From a virus, in IMG/VR virus record IMGVR_UViG_3300046007_015485, positions 1-34,784 of that record: 34,784 bases of DNA; one strand, written 5' to 3'. Both the position numbers and the translations under genes were made by a program. This document shows, piece by piece, positions 643 through 31,402 of this stretch. Under the pieces are notes generated by a model, which was not told the origin of the DNA, ran no database searches, and saw only the letters and a list, made by a program, of their open reading frames with translations. How positions within the stretch are numbered: the first letter of the stretch is position 1; each line of letters begins with the position of its first letter.

Positions 643-859
643 AATTCAAGAATCGCATGATGTCAGGAATGTCATCATCGCTATCCTCAAACATCATTGC
701 ACATACAAAATCAGGTTCATCTTCCATTTCAACGACTGCAATTTCTACTTTATCGCAGAAACTAAAGTTAAATGGTTCCCCATTTACTGAAGTTCTAAAC
801 ACCACCTCCATTTCTGGAGGCAGTGTATTTAAAGTTTCAATTAATTGAGCTACATTCAT
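641..859 (-). CDS. Small acidic hypothetical protein
   Basis: A 72-residue acidic protein. It begins with MNVAQLIETLNTLPPEMEVV, a pattern common in short phage proteins (ELIExLxxLPPdxEV), and ends in a run of Asp. Its ATG overlaps the GroEL stop as TAATG, so it is translationally coupled to GroEL and is the last gene of the chaperonin operon. Function unknown. Confidence 0.75.
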   Translation of the reverse strand: MNVAQLIETLNTLPPEMEVVFRTSVNGEPFNFSFCDKVEIAVVEMEDEPDFVCAMMFEDSDDDIPDIMRFLN

Positions 860-2460
860 TAGACATTTTTTGTTTCGGCAACCAATCCAGCACTTCCAAT
901 AATCATTGAGGCAACTGAATTTGCATTTTCTAATGCTACTCGTATAACTTTTACAGGATCGATAATTCCAGCTGCAATAAAATCATCATAAGAAAGAGTG
1001 TTTAAATTGTAACCTCCCTCTCCTCTTCTGATTTGTGAAACAATAACATCAATATTATCAATATGTGCGTTACTAAGGATTTGTCTAATAGGAGCCTGTA
1101 AAGACTCCGCCACAACACCAACACCACGCAAAAAGGACTCAGATCCATCTAAAATATCTTCTACAACAACAGAAGCTCTTAACAAAGCAACTCCACCACC
1201 CTCAGCAATACCTTCCTCAATAGCCGATTTAGTCGCTCTAACAGCATCGTCAACTCTATCCATCTTCTCCTTACGCTCAACGTCAGTAATAGCTCCTACA
1301 TGAATTTGACCAACGCTTCCAGTGAATTTAGCTAAACGAAGCGTGTTCACTTTTTTCAACTGCTCGTCTGAAGTGTTTTCTATTTCAGCTTTAATTTCAG
1401 CAATTCGTCTTTCGATTTCTTCTGGCTTACCAGCTCCTTCAACAAAGAGCGTTTTCCCGTTTGTATCAAGACCAGTTATTACAACCTTTTTAGCTGAACC
1501 AAAGTGCGATACCTCTACGTTTTCTAACTTAATACCGTTTTCGTCTGAGATTAATGTTGCTCCAGTTAAGGCTGCAACGTCACCCAAAATATCTTTTCTA
1601 AACACATTTCCTGGCGCACGGCAAACAAACACGTTTAAATTCTTCTCTCTGTTCATAACAGCAAAAGAATATGCTCCTTGGTCAATATTATTAACATAAA
1701 GCAACACTGGTCTCCCTCTTTCAAGTTCTGGAGCAACCTTTGTAAGATAAGGAATCATATCTTTTCTAGGATCCATTAATTCGTAGTCAGTAACCAAGAT
1801 TAACGGATTTTCAAGAACCGCTTGTTGTTTTGACGGATCAGTAACCATGTAAGGATGGATATATCCGCGTCCGATTTCAACTCCTTTAGTTACCGTAATA
1901 TATGTTTTATCGGTTGCTGAAGGCTCAATACTTAACACTCCGTCATCTCCAATTTGAGAGAATGCCTCAGCAATCAATTCTCCAATAACCGAATCGTTAT
2001 TTGCAGAAACGGTTGCAACATCTTTAATTTTGTGGTTTTGTGAATTAATCTTGATTGATTTATCGTCCAAATACTTTACCGCAGTTTTTACAGCAAAATC
2101 CATCCCAGCTTTCATTTCGCGAGGATTAATGTTTTGATCTAAGTACGTCATTGCCGAACTTAAAATCGATTGAGCAATTACCGTTGAGGTGGTTGTTCCA
2201 TCTCCAGCTTGGTCTAGCGTCTTTTCAGATACCGACTTCATTAATTGCGCTCCTACGGATTCTAACTCATCTTTTACTGTTACCGAACGAGCAACACTTA
2301 CTCCATCTTTTGTTACGATTGGAGTCTTTAAATACCCTTCGCTAATCACTACAGTCTTTCCGCTTGGTCCTAATGTAACCTTTACAATATCAGCAACCTT
2401 GTCGGCTCCTGCTTTTAACTTTAATCGAGCCTCTTGCTCTTGTAAAATTGTTTTTGCCAT
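859..2460 (-). CDS. groL: Phage-encoded chaperonin GroEL (Hsp60)
   Basis: Full-length 533-residue group I chaperonin, the ATP-driven folding chamber. Seen: TLGPSGKTV (29-37), KDG (51-53, equivalent to catalytic Asp52), GDGTTT (86-91, nucleotide binding) and VDDA (403-406), whose Asp405 aligns with E. coli Asp398. The AIEEGIAEGGGVALLR segment (413-428) is near-canonical. All key ATPase residues are present, so it should be active. In the apical domain GRGYIHPYM keeps both Tyr of the substrate/GroES site, but Phe204 becomes Met. The protein stops at GLVAETKNV and lacks the Gly-Gly-Met tail typical of bacterial GroEL. It shares an operon with a GroES and a GroES-repeat protein. Inference: it folds virion proteins. 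Confidence 0.97.
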   Translation of the reverse strand: MAKTILQEQEARLKLKAGADKVADIVKVTLGPSGKTVVISEGYLKTPIVTKDGVSVARSVTVKDELESVGAQLMKSVSEKTLDQAGDGTTTSTVIAQSILSSAMTYLDQNINPREMKAGMDFAVKTAVKYLDDKSIKINSQNHKIKDVATVSANNDSVIGELIAEAFSQIGDDGVLSIEPSATDKTYITVTKGVEIGRGYIHPYMVTDPSKQQAVLENPLILVTDYELMDPRKDMIPYLTKVAPELERGRPVLLYVNNIDQGAYSFAVMNREKNLNVFVCRAPGNVFRKDILGDVAALTGATLISDENGIKLENVEVSHFGSAKKVVITGLDTNGKTLFVEGAGKPEEIERRIAEIKAEIENTSDEQLKKVNTLRLAKFTGSVGQIHVGAITDVERKEKMDRVDDAVRATKSAIEEGIAEGGGVALLRASVVVEDILDGSESFLRGVGVVAESLQAPIRQILSNAHIDNIDVIVSQIRRGEGGYNLNTLSYDDFIAAGIIDPVKVIRVALENANSVASMIIGSAGLVAETKNV

Positions 2461-2463
2461 GTT

Positions 2464-2664
2464 TTATTTTAGTTTATTAATTAATTCTTCCAACCCTATT
2501 TGAACTCCGTTTAAATGGACCTCACCTGACGTAATGTCCATATTAAGCAAAACCGAGTTATCAACAGCATTAATTATTTTAAAGCAGTTTTCTTGACAGC
2601 GTTCACCACCGATCATAAAAACGCCATTATGCTGATACATGAAATACTTACCTTCCTGTCCCAT
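2464..2664 (-). CDS. Hypothetical protein, 66 aa
   Basis: Starts with ATG (MGQEGKYFMYQHNGVFMIGG) and ends in an amphipathic EELINKLK helix, 3 bp before the GroEL start. Its first 17 bases overlap the end of the upstream gene, so it is an operon member. The middle reads like short beta strands (LLNMDITSGEVHLNGVQI). No family recognised. Confidence 0.7.
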   Translation of the reverse strand: MGQEGKYFMYQHNGVFMIGGERCQENCFKIINAVDNSVLLNMDITSGEVHLNGVQIGLEELINKLK

Positions 2665-2917
2665 TAACCATTCTTAAAAAATGTTTAAAAGCATTCTTTT
2701 TATTCAACGCAGCAGTGTATAAACACCCTTGTTTAATTGTTAATTTCTTATTTCCTGTTTCCGACAACTCAGAATCGTATGTTGCAGGAATAATATTTCC
2801 AGTTTCAACTTCTAACTCCCATAACTTATGACCAGCCTTCATTACTGTTTGACCAATCATTTGTGGAACTACTTTAATAGGCTCATCAAGAGCTACTTTT
2901 GGCTTTTTCTCTTCCAT
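2648..2917 (-). CDS. Conserved phage hypothetical protein, 89 aa
   Basis: A small protein containing KVVPQMIGQTVMKAGHKLWELEVETG and a C-terminal KKNAFKHFLRMVNG. The sequence has the look of a conserved small protein of Bacteroidota phages, but I cannot name it. Its ATG overlaps the preceding stop (TAATG) and its 3' end overlaps the next gene, so it is tightly embedded in the chaperonin operon. Confidence 0.75.
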   Translation of the reverse strand: MEEKKPKVALDEPIKVVPQMIGQTVMKAGHKLWELEVETGNIIPATYDSELSETGNKKLTIKQGCLYTAALNKKNAFKHFLRMVNGTGR

Positions 2918-3342
2918 TAATTTTCTATTCCTAATTGAGTTAATATTCGTTTAAGTTCAGATTTATTTTTAATTTTACCAAAGAAACACCCCTTATCAAT
3001 ACCAAATGGACTACCTTCTTCAAAAATAGTATAAGTAATATTTATATCAGGACTATCAAGATAATCATCAAGAACCTCAATTTGAACCGTATATCTTTCA
3101 GAATGAAGCGAGAAATCGTAATCACCACTAGACTCAGGTATACCAAGACTTATTATATCTTCTTTATCAAGACGTTTTACTCTATAATCATCATAATCAA
3201 GTATTAATCCATCTTCATTTGAGTCAACACTAGCCAAGTTTTCTAAAACTCTCTTTGTCCAACCTTTATGTTTAACAAAATTCTCATACTCGAATCCTAC
3301 ATGAAATTCTGAAATTTCAGGTGTATAATATTTCTCTCCCAT
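2917..3342 (-). CDS. Hypothetical protein, 141 aa
   Basis: Begins with MGEKYYTPEISEFHVGFEYE. The short 'ISEFHVGFEYE' opening resembles small proteins of Bacteroidota phages. The rest is acidic and mixed alpha/beta, ending KSELKRILTQLGIEN. Its start overlaps the GroES stop as TAATG. No motif tells its role; it may serve the virion-assembly operon it sits in. Confidence 0.75.
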   Translation of the reverse strand: MGEKYYTPEISEFHVGFEYENFVKHKGWTKRVLENLASVDSNEDGLILDYDDYRVKRLDKEDIISLGIPESSGDYDFSLHSERYTVQIEVLDDYLDSPDINITYTIFEEGSPFGIDKGCFFGKIKNKSELKRILTQLGIEN

Positions 3343-3596
3343 TATAATATTGCGAATATGTCTGTGTTTTCGATTAAAATAACTAATTTTTCTCCTTCTG
3401 GAGACTCTACCTCAGCACCAGTGTAAGGTTTATACAAAATTGTATCACCAACGGAAACCCATTTACATTCCTCTCCTTTAGCAACCACAACTCCTTGTAA
3501 CGGCTTCTCAATTACCGAATCTGGAAGAATAAATCCTCCAACAATAGTCTTAGCGTCCGACTGTTTTATTAAAACTCTATTTGATAACGGCTTCAT
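3342..3596 (-). CDS. groS: Co-chaperonin GroES (Hsp10)
   Basis: 84 residues from MKPLSNRVLIKQ to NTDIFAIL, which follows the GroES pattern: PLxxRVLIK at the start, a mobile loop with the hydrophobic tripeptide FIL (in GGFILP, equivalent to IVL), then GVVVAKG, VGDTILY and a final LVILIENTDIFAIL. The frame is open further upstream, but I chose ATG 3596: it restores the usual GroES N-terminus and overlaps the preceding stop as ATGA. It would form a seven-fold lid on the GroEL encoded 0.9 kb downstream in the same operon. Confidence 0.92.
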   Translation of the reverse strand: MKPLSNRVLIKQSDAKTIVGGFILPDSVIEKPLQGVVVAKGEECKWVSVGDTILYKPYTGAEVESPEGEKLVILIENTDIFAIL

Positions 3597-4090
3597 ACTT
3601 CTTCTACTTTTATTATGTAACACTTTTTTTTCATTGTTAAGTCTGGAATAATATGCACTCCAGCACAAAACTTCTTATTATCATTAATAATTATTCCTTC
3701 TTCTTGTAACATATCCTCAACCAATTTAATCATCGTGATACAGTTACTTGGATCTAGTCTTGAATTATACGTCAGAGTTATGATATAGTTACAAATTTTC
3801 TCGTTACTTATCAACATACTCTTAAAAAATTCGTGCCACTCGTGTTTATGTTTGTTTCTAACCGTCCAGTGAGGAGTCGAGTACCAAGCATTTAAACTAA
3901 TATCTTTCCCAGCCCAACGAAACACATAAACTTTCTTATTTGCATCAAATTCTCCAACGACATCAGTTGCTATTTTAGGTTTTTTGATTACCTTAGCCTT
4001 TTGCTTTACACTTTTTTGTTTCGAATAAGATCCATCCTTATCCATAACCAACCCCATCACCTTTAATTGACCTTCGGTAAACCTTGTCAT
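3593..4090 (-). CDS. RusA-like Holliday-junction resolvase (probable)
   Basis: A 165-residue protein. The C-terminal ~105 residues follow the RusA layout: LNAWYSTPHWTVRNKHKHEW (substrate entry), a central strand, then RLDPSN (Asp113), IKLVEDML (Asp126) and IIINDNKK (Asp137). This spacing of acidic residues in D-P-x-N, E-D-x-L and N-D is typical of RusA metal ligands. Residues 1-45 are a Lys-rich extension. RusA enzymes cut four-way junctions, and in phages they act in recombination or before packaging. It overlaps both neighbours by 4 bp (ATGA). The family call is from motifs only. Confidence 0.6.
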   Translation of the reverse strand: MTRFTEGQLKVMGLVMDKDGSYSKQKSVKQKAKVIKKPKIATDVVGEFDANKKVYVFRWAGKDISLNAWYSTPHWTVRNKHKHEWHEFFKSMLISNEKICNYIITLTYNSRLDPSNCITMIKLVEDMLQEEGIIINDNKKFCAGVHIIPDLTMKKKCYIIKVEEV

Positions 4091-4920
4091 AGAACGTAAT
4101 TAATATTTGATAAAGCCAAGAACGACAAATCTTCGCCTTTGTAATTCAGTTTAGTTGCAACTCCGTGGCAATAATTTATTTTATCTCCTACGTTTATTCC
4201 AGCAACTTGTGATCCGACACTCAGGACCTCACCGAAATAATCTCGCCTTTTATCATCACCAATCGAAAACATTTGCTCTTTAAACGGAATCGGCTTAACA
4301 ATCATTTTATCTCTAAAACAAACCAAATCTCCGTTACGCTCAATAGCCATCACATTCCTTACACGCATCCTCCAGTAAAGTTTGTCTCCTACTTTTATTT
4401 CGTAGTCAGCGTTCTTAGTGAAGTACACAACATCGTTTTCAACTATCCCGTAATCGGAAGCAACCGTCCCAACGAAACATACCTTGGCGCAAGTTTTTAA
4501 GAACTCACGGTGAGGCTTCATAGCAAACATCCCGTGCCAAAGATTTTCTTCTGGCTCAAGTATCGGTTCTACGAAAATGAAGTTTTCTACTGGAATTATT
4601 CGGTCATTTTCAACCTTGGCAAATATCTGGAAAAATTCAGCTCGGTAAAGTTCTTGTTCATCAATCGAAACTTTGTTACAATCCTGAACAACGTGATGGT
4701 GAAACAGAATAGTATCGCCTTTCTTCAAAACACAACCCCCAGAGAATTGTTGGTCAATCTCTAGGGGAACGTGTGACAATACACCAATTTTGCAGGAATG
4801 TGTAAACTTTTCTAAATCAGTATCGATTATTAAAGGTTGTCCTTCTAATCCTTTTAAGGACAGATATTTGTTTAAATCTTTATCAGCCTTTATGAAAAAG
4901 GTATCCTTAATTAATCTCAT
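4087..4920 (-). CDS. Tandem (three-module) GroES-like protein
   Basis: 277 residues in which a GroES-like pattern appears about three times. Module 1 (about 1-100): KIGVLSHVP then LKKGDTILFHHHVV and a closing AEFFQIFAKVENDR. Module 2 (about 105-200): ENFIFVEPI, AKVCFVGTVAS, KVGDKLYWRMRVRNVMAIE. Module 3 (about 200-277): DKMIVKPIPF, GEVLSVGSQVAGINVGDKI and a final LSFLALSNINYVL, the clearest match to GroES. Each repeats G-x-V-x-x-V/P-G ... GD-x-I/L-x-Y/F. Tandem GroES domains are known from plant plastid Cpn20 (two domains). A triple form beside a phage GroEL and GroES is unusual. Inference: alternative or substrate-specific lid for the phage chaperonin. Confidence 0.65.
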   Translation of the reverse strand: MRLIKDTFFIKADKDLNKYLSLKGLEGQPLIIDTDLEKFTHSCKIGVLSHVPLEIDQQFSGGCVLKKGDTILFHHHVVQDCNKVSIDEQELYRAEFFQIFAKVENDRIIPVENFIFVEPILEPEENLWHGMFAMKPHREFLKTCAKVCFVGTVASDYGIVENDVVYFTKNADYEIKVGDKLYWRMRVRNVMAIERNGDLVCFRDKMIVKPIPFKEQMFSIGDDKRRDYFGEVLSVGSQVAGINVGDKINYCHGVATKLNYKGEDLSFLALSNINYVL

Positions 4921-17893: not shown

Positions 17894-20353
17894 TTACAGC
17901 AATCCTTTCTTCTCAGGAGCATTTTGTTTCATCGTTTCATTAAGAACTTTTCCGTCCTCTTTTATGTAGGCTACATCCTTAATCCCAACATTCTTTTCTT
18001 TGATTTGGTCAAGTGCTTGAACTCCTTCTTGAGCTAAGTACTGAGATTTTAACTGGTATTCTAAAGTTAATGTTTGACGCTTTTGTTCCTCAATAGCCGT
18101 AGCAGCTTCTAGGTTAGCTTGTGCTGCTTCTTTAGCAGCTTGTGACTGAACCTGAGCATTTTGCTCTTGTAAAGCAGCCGATTCTTGCATCTTATTCTTG
18201 CGATTCTTCTCCTCTAAATGAGTTAAAAGCGTAGCAGCTAACTTAACATCTTGTTTCAACACTTGGCGAACGCGGAAAATATCGCTAGTTGTTAAAGTTC
18301 CTCCTTGTTGACCGATAGCTAATTGGTTCTCGATAAACATTTTCTCTTCGTCATCTGGCAACAACTCAATTTTAATAGCAAATTGATTAAACGCCAATGA
18401 TCGACCAAGCTTAATTACCTCAGCTCCTTGTTCTCCAATAGCATTAGAGAAAGCTTCAAAATTATACTCAATAGAGTCTTGTATCATTAAGGCTAATTGT
18501 TTAGCCGTCTTTTCGATCAATCGGATGTGGTAAAAATAGATTGGTCTCAACGCGTTATTAGATGCTTGGACCGCCATCTTCTGAGTTCCTACCAAGGCTT
18601 CAGAGTTTGGTGAACTAGCGTCAACAGCTGTATTGTAACCTATTACTTGGTTCATTAACTCAATGTAATGGTTGTGGGTAGCCAATAAAGCATTGAAAGA
18701 GGTTCCAATACCATTATCTAATGGAGTGATTACCGCATTATTAATAACATTTCCTTCTTCGTCAATAGAAGAATAAACGTAATTACCTGTTTGTTCGTAA
18801 ATCTTGGTAATGTCGGTAGGCTTCATTTTGCCATCTCCCATACCTTTAATTACGTTATACATACCTCGGATGTCGATAGCGACTCCAGGCGGTTTCAATT
18901 TAATTAAATGTTGTTGAAACTTTAAGTGGGCTAAGTTTAGTTGGTCCTCCAATGGGATCATTCGCTCAACAATCGACTTATTTTCCATGTCGTAAATGTC
19001 TGGCGCGATAATTGCTATTGGTAACTCTACCTTTGGATTGTAACTTCCGCTAACTTTTTCTCTCGGCACGTTCTTAGATTGACCGTAATCCCAAAGATAT
19101 TCGGTGTCGGGTATCCACTTACCTTCAAATCGGTATTGGATAGACTTTCTAATAACTTCAGACTTCTCAGCCTTTTTCTTAGTTTTAACCTCAATAAAAT
19201 AAGCCTTAGCTGATTCTTTTGTAGGATAAGTATCTTTCGAAACGCGTAAATCTTCTCCCTTAACTATCCATTCATTACCAATATCAGTTACAACAAATGA
19301 GTTTGGATCGATTTCAATCTTATAATCAGGAGCCTTCTCTTCGAAGAAAAACCCTCCTTTTGACTTAGATTTCTTCAATCGAACCTCTTCACAAGGCGAT
19401 AAGAAGAAAAACTCCATCACTGGAATGTTGAAATTGTAATACGGCATTGTACCGCCAGCATTATTTTGATAGTATCCTTCATAGGAAACTCCGTAGGTCC
19501 ATGCTGGATTTCCGTTTCTTCCTTCTTGAGACTTAGCGATGTCGAATAACTCTTGGTTTGTAAAGCCAGTATTCATTTCAGCAATCTCACCAATAGTGTA
19601 TTTTTTAACTATTGCTTGGTAAGGTATATTTCTGAAGTCATCGTACTTAGAATAAGGAGTAATTATGTCAATCGGATCAGCATAATCTACTCTCAAGTTG
19701 AAATTCTCGTCATAATAACGATAAATTGCAGCTCTCTTAATAGTCAATAAATCTTTTAGAATAGCGCGTCTAGTGTCATCGAATAGGTTATTCATAAACA
19801 CAAATTGCAATGCTTGCTCCATTGCCATACTCGCGTCATTCTTATAATTAAGTTTCAAATGAAGTTCAGCCTCCTCGTTTGTTTGAGGCAATTGCTCACC
19901 CTTTGGAACTAATGGCACTCCTGTAAACTGCTCAATTTCAGCAGATATTGGAGCCAAAAACATCTTAGCGTATAATTTTCGTCTGTGTTCGTCAAATTTA
20001 ACCTTTGACTCAGTGTCTAATGGATTGCATTGAATCTTGTAGTTCTGATTCATCATCTTACCAACAATATTGTCGATAATTGTTGCAATCCTGTTGATCG
20101 GATTAAAGTCAAGATTTAGATACGAGGTATCTCCGTTTAAGTCTAATAAGTCCTTATACTTTTGGATTGAAGGCATCCCTTCAGCGTATTTTCGGCTAAC
20201 AATGTCACGCGCTCTCTTTTGATCGTATAAATTTATTGCTTGCTTATAGTTACCCCAAATTGATTGTGCGTATTGTAATCCGTAAGCCTTCTTTGACTTA
20301 TCTTCCTTGCTTTGAAATGGAGATGGAAATGCTGTATAGTTATTACCAGTCAT
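17894..20353 (-). CDS. Portal protein
   Basis: 819 residues from ATG 20353 (MTGNNYTAFPSPF); the frame runs on to 20401, but that part lies upstream of the promoter and includes the operator. Features fitting a portal: an early INRIATIIDNIVGKMMNQ segment, a central ERMIPLEDQLNLAHLKFQQHLI helix, SSPNSEALVGTQKMAVQASN and a long C-terminal helical, Gln/Ala/Glu-rich region (about 715-800) ending in charged residues. At about 820 residues it is in the size class of large Bacteroidota podovirus/crAss-like portals. Twelve copies would form the DNA channel of the head. Confidence 0.8.
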   Translation of the reverse strand: MTGNNYTAFPSPFQSKEDKSKKAYGLQYAQSIWGNYKQAINLYDQKRARDIVSRKYAEGMPSIQKYKDLLDLNGDTSYLNLDFNPINRIATIIDNIVGKMMNQNYKIQCNPLDTESKVKFDEHRRKLYAKMFLAPISAEIEQFTGVPLVPKGEQLPQTNEEAELHLKLNYKNDASMAMEQALQFVFMNNLFDDTRRAILKDLLTIKRAAIYRYYDENFNLRVDYADPIDIITPYSKYDDFRNIPYQAIVKKYTIGEIAEMNTGFTNQELFDIAKSQEGRNGNPAWTYGVSYEGYYQNNAGGTMPYYNFNIPVMEFFFLSPCEEVRLKKSKSKGGFFFEEKAPDYKIEIDPNSFVVTDIGNEWIVKGEDLRVSKDTYPTKESAKAYFIEVKTKKKAEKSEVIRKSIQYRFEGKWIPDTEYLWDYGQSKNVPREKVSGSYNPKVELPIAIIAPDIYDMENKSIVERMIPLEDQLNLAHLKFQQHLIKLKPPGVAIDIRGMYNVIKGMGDGKMKPTDITKIYEQTGNYVYSSIDEEGNVINNAVITPLDNGIGTSFNALLATHNHYIELMNQVIGYNTAVDASSPNSEALVGTQKMAVQASNNALRPIYFYHIRLIEKTAKQLALMIQDSIEYNFEAFSNAIGEQGAEVIKLGRSLAFNQFAIKIELLPDDEEKMFIENQLAIGQQGGTLTTSDIFRVRQVLKQDVKLAATLLTHLEEKNRKNKMQESAALQEQNAQVQSQAAKEAAQANLEAATAIEEQKRQTLTLEYQLKSQYLAQEGVQALDQIKEKNVGIKDVAYIKEDGKVLNETMKQNAPEKKGLL

Positions 20354-20373
20354 TATTGTATCTAATTTAGCAA

Positions 20374-20381
20374 CAAAGATA
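20374..20381 (-). promoter_or_regulatory. -7 element TATCTTTG of the portal gene
   Basis: Matches TAnnTTTG, 20 bp upstream of ATG 20353. As at 606-613, the position of the -33 box is taken by the palindrome (20390-20408). Confidence 0.65.
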
Positions 20382-20389
20382 ATAAATTT

Positions 20390-20408
20390 ATTTAGAATCA
20401 TTCTAAAT
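20390..20408. promoter_or_regulatory. Palindromic operator, copy 3
   Basis: Perfect 8-bp arms, ATTTAGAA-TCA-TTCTAAAT. It lies between the leftward portal promoter and the rightward DnaA-operon promoter, so one bound protein could control both. Its centre (20399) is 20 bp upstream of the TTTG at 20419, identical to copy 2. Confidence 0.7.
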
Positions 20409-21989: not shown

Positions 21990-22793
21990 ATGGAAAAAGG
22001 AAACGGACTTAGATTTAACAATGGGAAAACAAGACATGATCTTGTCCCTGCATTTGCACAAGAACAATATGCTAGAGTATTAACAGCTGGAGCAAACAAA
22101 TACGCTGATCGTAATTGGGAAAAGGGCATGAAGTGGAGCATTGTTATGGCTTCAATGAAAAGACATATCTTAGCTTTCGAAAGAGGGGAAGATTTCGATC
22201 CAGAAACAGGACAACTACACACTGCTCACGTTATGTGTAACGCAGCTTTTTTAACTGAGTACTACAACATCTTCCCTCAAGGAGATGATAGACCTCATCA
22301 ATACCTAACGCCTCCAAAAATAGGACTAGACATCGATGAAGTATTAGCTGATTGGGTTGGTCATTGGACTAAATACCACGGACAAGAAGTTCCTGAGACT
22401 TGGAACTTTGACAGAAATATAGGAGAGAAGTTCGAAAAACTAAAGGATGACAAAGAGTTTTGGTTATCAATACCAGTTAAAACAAATCCAAAAGACATTC
22501 ATTTTGAACCTCACTGTTACATAACATCACGAATAATTCCTGTTGAATGGACGATGGAGTGGTTAGACAAAAACGGATTCCCTACAATGCCTGTTTACTC
22601 TATCGGTCATGGAGAAAGCAAAGTAGAAGTTGCAAAAAAAAGTGGAATAGATATATTTGTTGACGATAGATTTGATAACTTCGTGGACTTAAATAACGCT
22701 GGAATTTGTTGCTACTTATTCTCAGCTCCTCACAACGAAAGATACAATGTTGGTCACAAACGAATTAATTCACTAAATGATTTATGCAGATAA
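21990..22793 (+). CDS. Fusion: dATP/dGTP pyrophosphohydrolase + HAD 5'-nucleotidase
   Basis: 267 residues, two domains. Residues 1-~95: GLRFNNGKTRHDLVPAFAQE, GANKYADRNWEKGMKW, FERGEDFDPETGQLHTAH and NAAFLTEYY match the phage dATP/dGTP diphosphohydrolase (DUF5664-type, MazG-like) domain, which turns dNTP into dNMP plus pyrophosphate. Residues ~108-267: IGLDIDEVLADW (Asp114/Asp116), ITSR (178-181), Lys211 and DIFVDDRFDN (Asp225/226) give a HAD phosphatase like 5'(3')-deoxyribonucleotidase. Together they could take dNTPs to nucleosides, or shape the pool for a modified base. It overlaps the primase-helicase start by 10 bp. Confidence 0.82.
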   Translation: MEKGNGLRFNNGKTRHDLVPAFAQEQYARVLTAGANKYADRNWEKGMKWSIVMASMKRHILAFERGEDFDPETGQLHTAHVMCNAAFLTEYYNIFPQGDDRPHQYLTPPKIGLDIDEVLADWVGHWTKYHGQEVPETWNFDRNIGEKFEKLKDDKEFWLSIPVKTNPKDIHFEPHCYITSRIIPVEWTMEWLDKNGFPTMPVYSIGHGESKVEVAKKSGIDIFVDDRFDNFVDLNNAGICCYLFSAPHNERYNVGHKRINSLNDLCR

Positions 22794-31054: not shown

Positions 31055-31402
31055 ATGAAACCTAGAAAATCAATCATCGAAAAAATTAGAGCATCAGTAT
31101 TAAGACAAGAAATAAGCCACAGAGGAGGAGGAATTGAAATCAGCCTAGATACCTTCGGTTTTAAAGGCGAGAAGATGGCAGCCTACCAAAACTATCTAGG
31201 AGGAGGAATTTTAGGTCGCATCTGTGCTAATGATACAATAAGAAGACAAACCTTAAAAACTACTGAAGCGAAGGCAAAAAAGCTAGATAAAATAGCTGAG
31301 GAGTTAAAAAAGTACTTTCATAGCCTAACAAGGCATGAAGATGATGAATGGGAGGATGAAGAGTACGAAAGCAATCAAAACAAGCCAGTATCAGCATATT
31401 AA
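31055..31402 (+). CDS. Conserved phage hypothetical protein, 115 aa
   Basis: Starts at ATG 31055 (MKPRKSIIEKIRASVLRQEI); the longer frame overlaps the lipoprotein gene and is rejected. The segment FGFKGEKMAAYQNYLGGGIL is a recognisable conserved motif of small Bacteroidota phage proteins of unknown function. The C-terminus is acidic (RHEDDEWEDEEYES). Confidence 0.75.
   Translation: MKPRKSIIEKIRASVLRQEISHRGGGIEISLDTFGFKGEKMAAYQNYLGGGILGRICANDTIRRQTLKTTEAKAKKLDKIAEELKKYFHSLTRHEDDEWEDEEYESNQNKPVSAY

Follow-up and report, generated by a model that had tools for sequence, protein, structure and literature searches.

GroES forms a seven-subunit dome that binds through its mobile loops (PMC5780408). 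Cpn10 and Cpn20 form hetero-oligomers with seven domains, and GroES concatamers with six or eight domains work (PMC5780408). One Arabidopsis Cpn10 is functional only together with Cpn20; a minimum of four functional loops out of seven is said to be required (PMC4242682). In Chlamydomonas, the CLP core carries a CPN11/CPN20/CPN23 heterotetramer (PMC8889267). Two-domain GroES proteins are also annotated in phages (phi38:1 gp089, phi18:3 gp096, Elemovirus, and Maribacter Panino CDS0088), and GroEL and GroES homologs have been mentioned for Panino (PMC11590407). In the literature searched, we found no study of two-domain phage GroES proteins and no description of a three-domain phage GroES.

Here we describe a phage protein with three GroES-like modules. 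The window (the whole stretch of DNA that was analysed, 34.8 kb) comes from a relative of Bacteroidetes phages, and on its minus strand we found the three-domain gene followed by a RusA-like gene, a single-domain GroES gene, three small genes and a GroEL gene:

4087..4920, minus strand: three-domain GroES-like protein, 277 aa (ORF, Pfam Cpn10 and family HMM)
3593..4090, minus strand: RusA-like Holliday junction resolvase, next in the run (phrog_4632, 6.3e-7)
3342..3596, minus strand: single-domain GroES, 84 aa, with the loop GGFILP (Pfam Cpn10, 1.6e-15)
2917..3342, minus strand: 141-aa gene of the GroES/GroEL run, no family (Pfam and PHROG profiles)
2648..2917, minus strand: 89-aa gene of the run, weak virion structural match (phrog_21065, 3.3e-5)
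2464..2664, minus strand: 66-aa gene of the GroES/GroEL run, no family
859..2460, minus strand: phage GroEL, 533 aa (phrog_5725, 1.5e-125)

The 277-aa frame runs from an ATG at 4920 to a stop codon at 4087-4089 and overlaps the RusA-like gene by 4 bases; the RusA-like gene and the GroES gene overlap by 4 bases as well. The start of the single GroES is likely the ATG at 3596, which lies within a TTG-extended open reading frame (3342-3668). By motif alignment, the conserved GDGTTT and DRVDDA motifs of the window GroEL are intact. These data agree with the original prediction, which had placed a 277-residue product here in an operon with a normal GroES and GroEL; the coding strand is the minus strand, and the tight run includes the RusA-like gene.

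No terminase was found within the 34.8 kb of the window. The window portal gene (17894-20401) has no adjacent terminase, in contrast to its relatives. A minus-strand gene at positions 1-585 is cut by the left edge of the window, and its counterpart in the nearest portal relative, a 32 kb fragment, lies within a virion gene cluster; that fragment contains no such GroES-like gene as the one described here. The late genes of the window appear either to have been rearranged or to be divided by the ends of the contig. At positions 21990-22793 there is a 267-aa protein whose N-terminal half matches a dATP/dGTP pyrophosphohydrolase PHROG and whose full length is matched by an unnamed PHROG.

The whole 277-aa protein matches Pfam Cpn10 (PF00166) in two stretches, with a value of 7.2e-9 and 36 bits (cut-off 21.1). 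PHROG 13932 (co-chaperonin GroES) matches residues 7-194 (3.6e-15), and the best stretch for PHROG 3188 (also co-chaperonin GroES) is residues 221-273 (1.5e-9). The protein is made up of three modules:

4606..4920, minus strand: module 1, residues 1-105, first domain (D1) of the two-domain family, divergent GroES barrel
4333..4608, minus strand: module 2, residues 105-196, second domain (D2) of the two-domain family, Cpn10-like
4090..4332, minus strand: module 3, residues 197-277, extra single-domain GroES-like unit

We scored each module with a GroES HMM made from 30 Bacteroidota host GroES and 7 phage GroES, and as a control the residues of each module were shuffled and about 1,800 shuffles scored per module. 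Module 2 scores 26.0 bits compared to a shuffle maximum of 6.8, and module 3 scores 26.6 bits compared to a maximum of 11.0; both modules are far beyond chance as GroES-type sequences. Module 1 taken as a single sequence is a borderline GroES match, with 6.7 bits against a shuffle maximum of 6.8 (2 of 1,822 shuffles were as high). When the family alignment of module 1 (71 rows) was compared to a GroES profile, the hhalign score was 30.7 (70.9%). Among the controls, the best of 100 column shuffles scored 14.6, and reversing the alignment gave 14.0. The module 2 family (D2) matched the GroES profile at 98.6%. Searching solved structures with just the 277-aa sequence returned chance hits only. 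As a family profile and by its predicted structure, module 1 is a clear GroES relative.

The structure of the 277-aa protein was predicted with AlphaFold2 from an alignment of 71 rows. In modules 1 and 2, the strands outside the loops are at pLDDT about 90. In a comparison with the PDB, modules 1-2 match 7ekq_R first (Z 9.7, 165 residues, 3.8 A, spanning residues 2-195). The title of entry 7ekq names CrClpP-S2c, a Chlamydomonas ClpP-cochaperonin complex, and from their lengths of 205 and 194 we infer that its chains Q and R are two-domain cochaperonins. The module 1 model matches GroES 3nx6 (Z 8.1) and T4 gp31 1g31 (Z 7.0), and the module 2 model matches GroES/Cpn10 structures at Z about 8, with 4v4o_P at Z 8.7 over residues 107-195. 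This first model was weak in module 3 because no relative covers module 3. When module 3 was refolded with GroES-type rows, its pLDDT was 86.4 and the model matched 1p3h_A (Z 11.6, the best GroES-structure match), 3nx6 (Z 10.9, 0.9 A over 64 residues) and T4 gp31 1g31 (Z 9.1). Since the rows of that alignment were chosen as GroES-type, the fold of module 3 may be biased, and independent support comes from the sequence scores. Taken together, the sequence profiles and predicted structures bear out the three GroES-like modules originally proposed and support a GroES beta-barrel in each of them; the barrel is predicted in all three segments rather than missing from two or more.

Modules 1-2 (residues 1-196) fall in PHROG 13932, a large family of phage proteins with two GroES-like domains, and a two-domain family HMM from which the window protein was left out matches residues 7-194 at E 1e-36. 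Among the matches listed, the nearest relatives of modules 1-2 come from uncultured phages of subfamily B (31% identity), and in the tree a very long branch leads to the window protein from the base of this subfamily. About 160 relatives (80 + 80 loci, among the matches listed) all end after two domains, with lengths of 182-202 aa and one edge fragment of 166. At least 323 frames match the two-domain HMM in 495 loci, some of them overlapping, and the longest frame other than the window's own 277 has at most 214 residues from the first methionine. Two frames of 240-245 codons, in loci L104 and L120, are two-domain; their extra codons precede the first methionine or the start. Two-domain GroES is found in hundreds of IMG/VR stretches and is common to Pervagoviridae, Elemovirus, Pachyviridae and many uncultured phages. 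The original prediction knew of two-domain co-chaperonins from plastids, which understates their range: two-domain phage versions are annotated, make up PHROG 13932 and are widespread in IMG/VR.

Subfamily A comprises the phi38:1, Panino, elemo and MW202828 type, and a phage GroEL is often present; in phi38:1, MW202828, elemo and Panino, the GroEL, the single GroES and the two-domain protein occur together. A phage GroEL is present in 20 of 50 longer IMG/VR records, and in each of the 20 it is accompanied by both a single GroES and a two-domain protein. In subfamily B, neither a GroEL nor a separate GroES was found in any of 25 phage records, 8 of which are at least 50 kb and which may be incomplete. 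The complete genome of phi18:3 (Pachyviridae, NC_021794.1) encodes a single GroES (31108-31362) and a two-domain protein (41458-42060), and GroEL was not found in it. The window departs from the family pattern: its sequence is B-like, yet a GroEL is present and its 34.8 kb hold no terminase that we could find.

In each module there is a loop at the position of the GroES mobile loop:

4816..4863, minus strand: module 1 loop, residues 20-35, with GLEGQPLIIDTD
4495..4557, minus strand: module 2 loop, residues 122-142, with HGMFAMKPH
4252..4296, minus strand: module 3 loop, residues 209-223, with KEQMFSIGDDKRR

In the predicted models, the loop is flexible and of low confidence in all three modules: pLDDT is below 50 at residues 22-26 and 28-34 in module 1 and at residues 133-136 in module 2, and is 56 in residues 21-30 of the module 3 model. 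The module 3 loop aligns by eye to SGIIIVGESSVKR of phi18:3 gp080 and is about 4 residues shorter. The GroEL-binding tripeptide is only approximate across the modules (GQPLII, GMFAM and QMFSI), and neither module 1 nor module 3 has a clean GG-I-V-L motif in its loop. Within the two-domain family, most members have retained the loop in D1; in subfamily B, module 2 still has GroES-like loops (for example KSDLLEIVSF and EAGVIIP), and in subfamily A it has largely lost the loop. Because of this loss, and because modules 1 and 3 are without the clean motif, the three-domain chain could bind GroEL poorly. The single GroES carries GGFILP and the modules carry looser loops; judging from these motifs, the long chain may bind less strongly, and the single GroES may anchor a lid.

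To find where module 3 came from, we compared it with other GroES-type domains. In the tree, module 1 groups with the family D1 (support 99) and module 2 with the subfamily-B D2 (support 97), and module 3 is a long branch in no supported set. The best phmmer matches of module 3 among 45 GroES-type domains are phi18:3 gp080 (7e-8) and the elemo GroES (5e-6). A scan for relatives of module 3 returned only single-domain proteins, and among the relatives read, module 3 was seen in no protein other than that of the window. Duplication of module 1 or module 2 is disfavoured, as these two fall in the supported D1 and D2 sets and module 3 falls outside them. The sequences are best fitted by a fusion in which a two-domain protein would have gained a single-domain phage GroES as its last domain.

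Three-domain members were not found when viral contigs were scanned with the 277-aa protein alone (a weak scan, by exact short peptides), with modules 2-3, or with module 3 and the single GroES. Scans of viral contigs with the two-domain family and with subfamily B likewise gave no three-domain member among the matches listed, and two scans of genome contigs (one weak, by exact short peptides) gave none. The three-domain form is known to us from one uncultured contig only, and other members may exist, as the family searches cover the matches listed. A viral model in BFVD, A0A516L046 (304 aa), aligned over 294 columns with TM 0.50/0.46; since it aligns along the whole protein, the three-domain architecture may already exist unannotated. 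The earlier suggestion that a three-domain version would be new thus stands insofar as we found no described case, and is tempered by this model. Two-domain phage GroES is already known; what is new is the three-domain variant, which may not be unique.

We propose that the 277-aa protein is a concatenated co-chaperonin that supplies three of the seven lid positions, with the single GroES supplying the rest, and we give this reading a probability of roughly 0.6. The third, single-domain unit would have been added at the C-terminal end of a two-domain phage GroES, with gene fusion as the most likely route. The linkers are of few residues, so the barrels would probably lie next to one another, as adjacent subunits do in the GroES ring. 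One long chain would then take three of the seven lid positions, and the single GroES from the same run would take the others. As a three-domain chain and a single GroES are encoded in one run, a mixed lid could consist of two long chains and one GroES (3+3+1) or of one long chain and four GroES (3+1+1+1+1), both of which make seven. The product would be a built-in asymmetric lid on the phage GroEL or on the host GroEL, for folding a virion protein. For the three-domain chain we thus infer ring membership, a mixed lid, a client and binding to GroEL. That the phage broke the seven-fold symmetry of the cap by fusion, with two long chains and one GroES or one and four, and tuned it to one virion client is a more speculative step, which we put forward tentatively. 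The original prediction had found the symmetry puzzling against a seven-fold ring; the puzzle is real and has precedent in seven-domain hetero-oligomers and in concatamers of six and eight domains (PMC5780408). Genomic context is consistent with a lid in that the three-domain gene shares its run with GroES and with a GroEL whose motifs are intact. Also in favour are the three predicted GroES folds, the match of modules 1-2 to a two-domain chain of 7ekq, the low-confidence loop at the mobile-loop position of each module, the GroES-like loops of subfamily-B module 2, and the company of a single GroES and a two-domain protein in the 20 IMG/VR records with a phage GroEL and in phi38:1, MW202828, elemo and Panino; the Arabidopsis Cpn10 that depends on Cpn20 is a precedent for a mixed lid (PMC4242682).

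The context of the two-domain family speaks against a lid. In each of the 146 testable loci, the two-domain gene has a same-strand match to the terminase large subunit downstream of it, at most 2.5 kb away in 136 of them, and in every isolate checked the two-domain gene is upstream of the terminase; thus the family adjoins terminase, not GroEL, and it occurs in many phage records that have no GroEL of their own. These data would fit a GroES-fold protein that has been diverted to head assembly or DNA packaging and acts on portal, terminase or capsid, with the third module as an elaboration, and so would the presence of the tandem protein without GroEL in 25 of 25 subfamily-B records and in complete phi18:3. 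However, T4 gp31 replaces GroES on the host GroEL (PMC6318259); a host GroEL is available, so the lid reading is not weakened where a phage has no GroEL of its own. Proximity to late genes would be expected of a capsid-protein chaperone too. In addition, the loops at the GroEL position are kept in most D1 and in the subfamily-B D2, and the window gene lies within a GroES/GroEL run, not by a terminase. We regard a packaging or assembly role as the main alternative to a lid and as rather doubtful.

A cap or regulator of another seven-fold machine such as ClpP, or a decoy that displaces the host GroES, seems to us quite improbable. In structure, modules 1-2 are matched best by a chain from the ClpP complex in 7ekq, and a cochaperonin-CLP complex has been described (PMC8889267), but the match may only reflect a solved two-domain GroES, and nothing links the phage protein to ClpP, its neighbours being GroES and GroEL. 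Least probable of all is an assembly or sequencing artefact in which two adjacent genes were joined: the evidence comes from a single contig, the third module is in no relative read, and an in-frame GroEL-GroES join in another locus may be of such a kind, but the 277-codon frame is uninterrupted, has its own start and a 4-base overlap with the next gene, has no methionine at the boundary of modules 2 and 3, holds a module 3 about as divergent as modules 1 and 2, and is aligned over its whole length by the 304-aa viral model.

The locus with that join (L391, positions 1-1686 of IMGVR_UViG_3300030090_003409) has a GroEL that continues in frame into GroES residues 25-85; the GroES part lacks its N-terminus and the larger part of its mobile loop. 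This join is either a true fusion in nature or a deletion made in assembly.

GroES subunits linked in the laboratory have probed how many lid contacts GroEL needs. If the concatenated co-chaperonin reading is right, related phages would offer natural lids of one, two and three domains, both where the phage encodes a GroEL and where it does not, and one could test directly how 2n or 3n domains fit a seven-fold ring and whether a single GroES must always be mixed in. Tandem GroES is not a plastid speciality; it occurs widely among relatives of Bacteroidetes phages.

Compared to known systems, the window protein is closest to the two-domain proteins of PHROG 13932, which are homologous to modules 1-2 end to end. 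These proteins have two domains and about 180-215 aa, whereas the window protein has three domains and 277 aa; their genes adjoin terminase, whereas the window gene adjoins the RusA-like, GroES and GroEL genes. The single-domain phage GroES proteins (phi18:3 gp080 and elemo) stand alone at 83-84 aa, in contrast to module 3, which is fused; phi18:3 gp080 likewise has a RusA-like gene, two genes upstream. T4 gp31 is a phage-encoded GroES fold, like modules 1 and 3 (which match 1g31); however, it is a single-domain homoheptamer that works on the host GroEL, with 8-17% identity. In plastid Cpn20 and in CPN20-CPN23 (7ekq), GroES domains are arranged head to tail on one chain, as in the window protein. 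Plastid Cpn20 is eukaryotic and has two domains and 12% identity, whereas the phage protein has three domains. Cpn20 acts together with the single-domain Cpn10, and the window phage encodes a single GroES alongside its three-domain protein.
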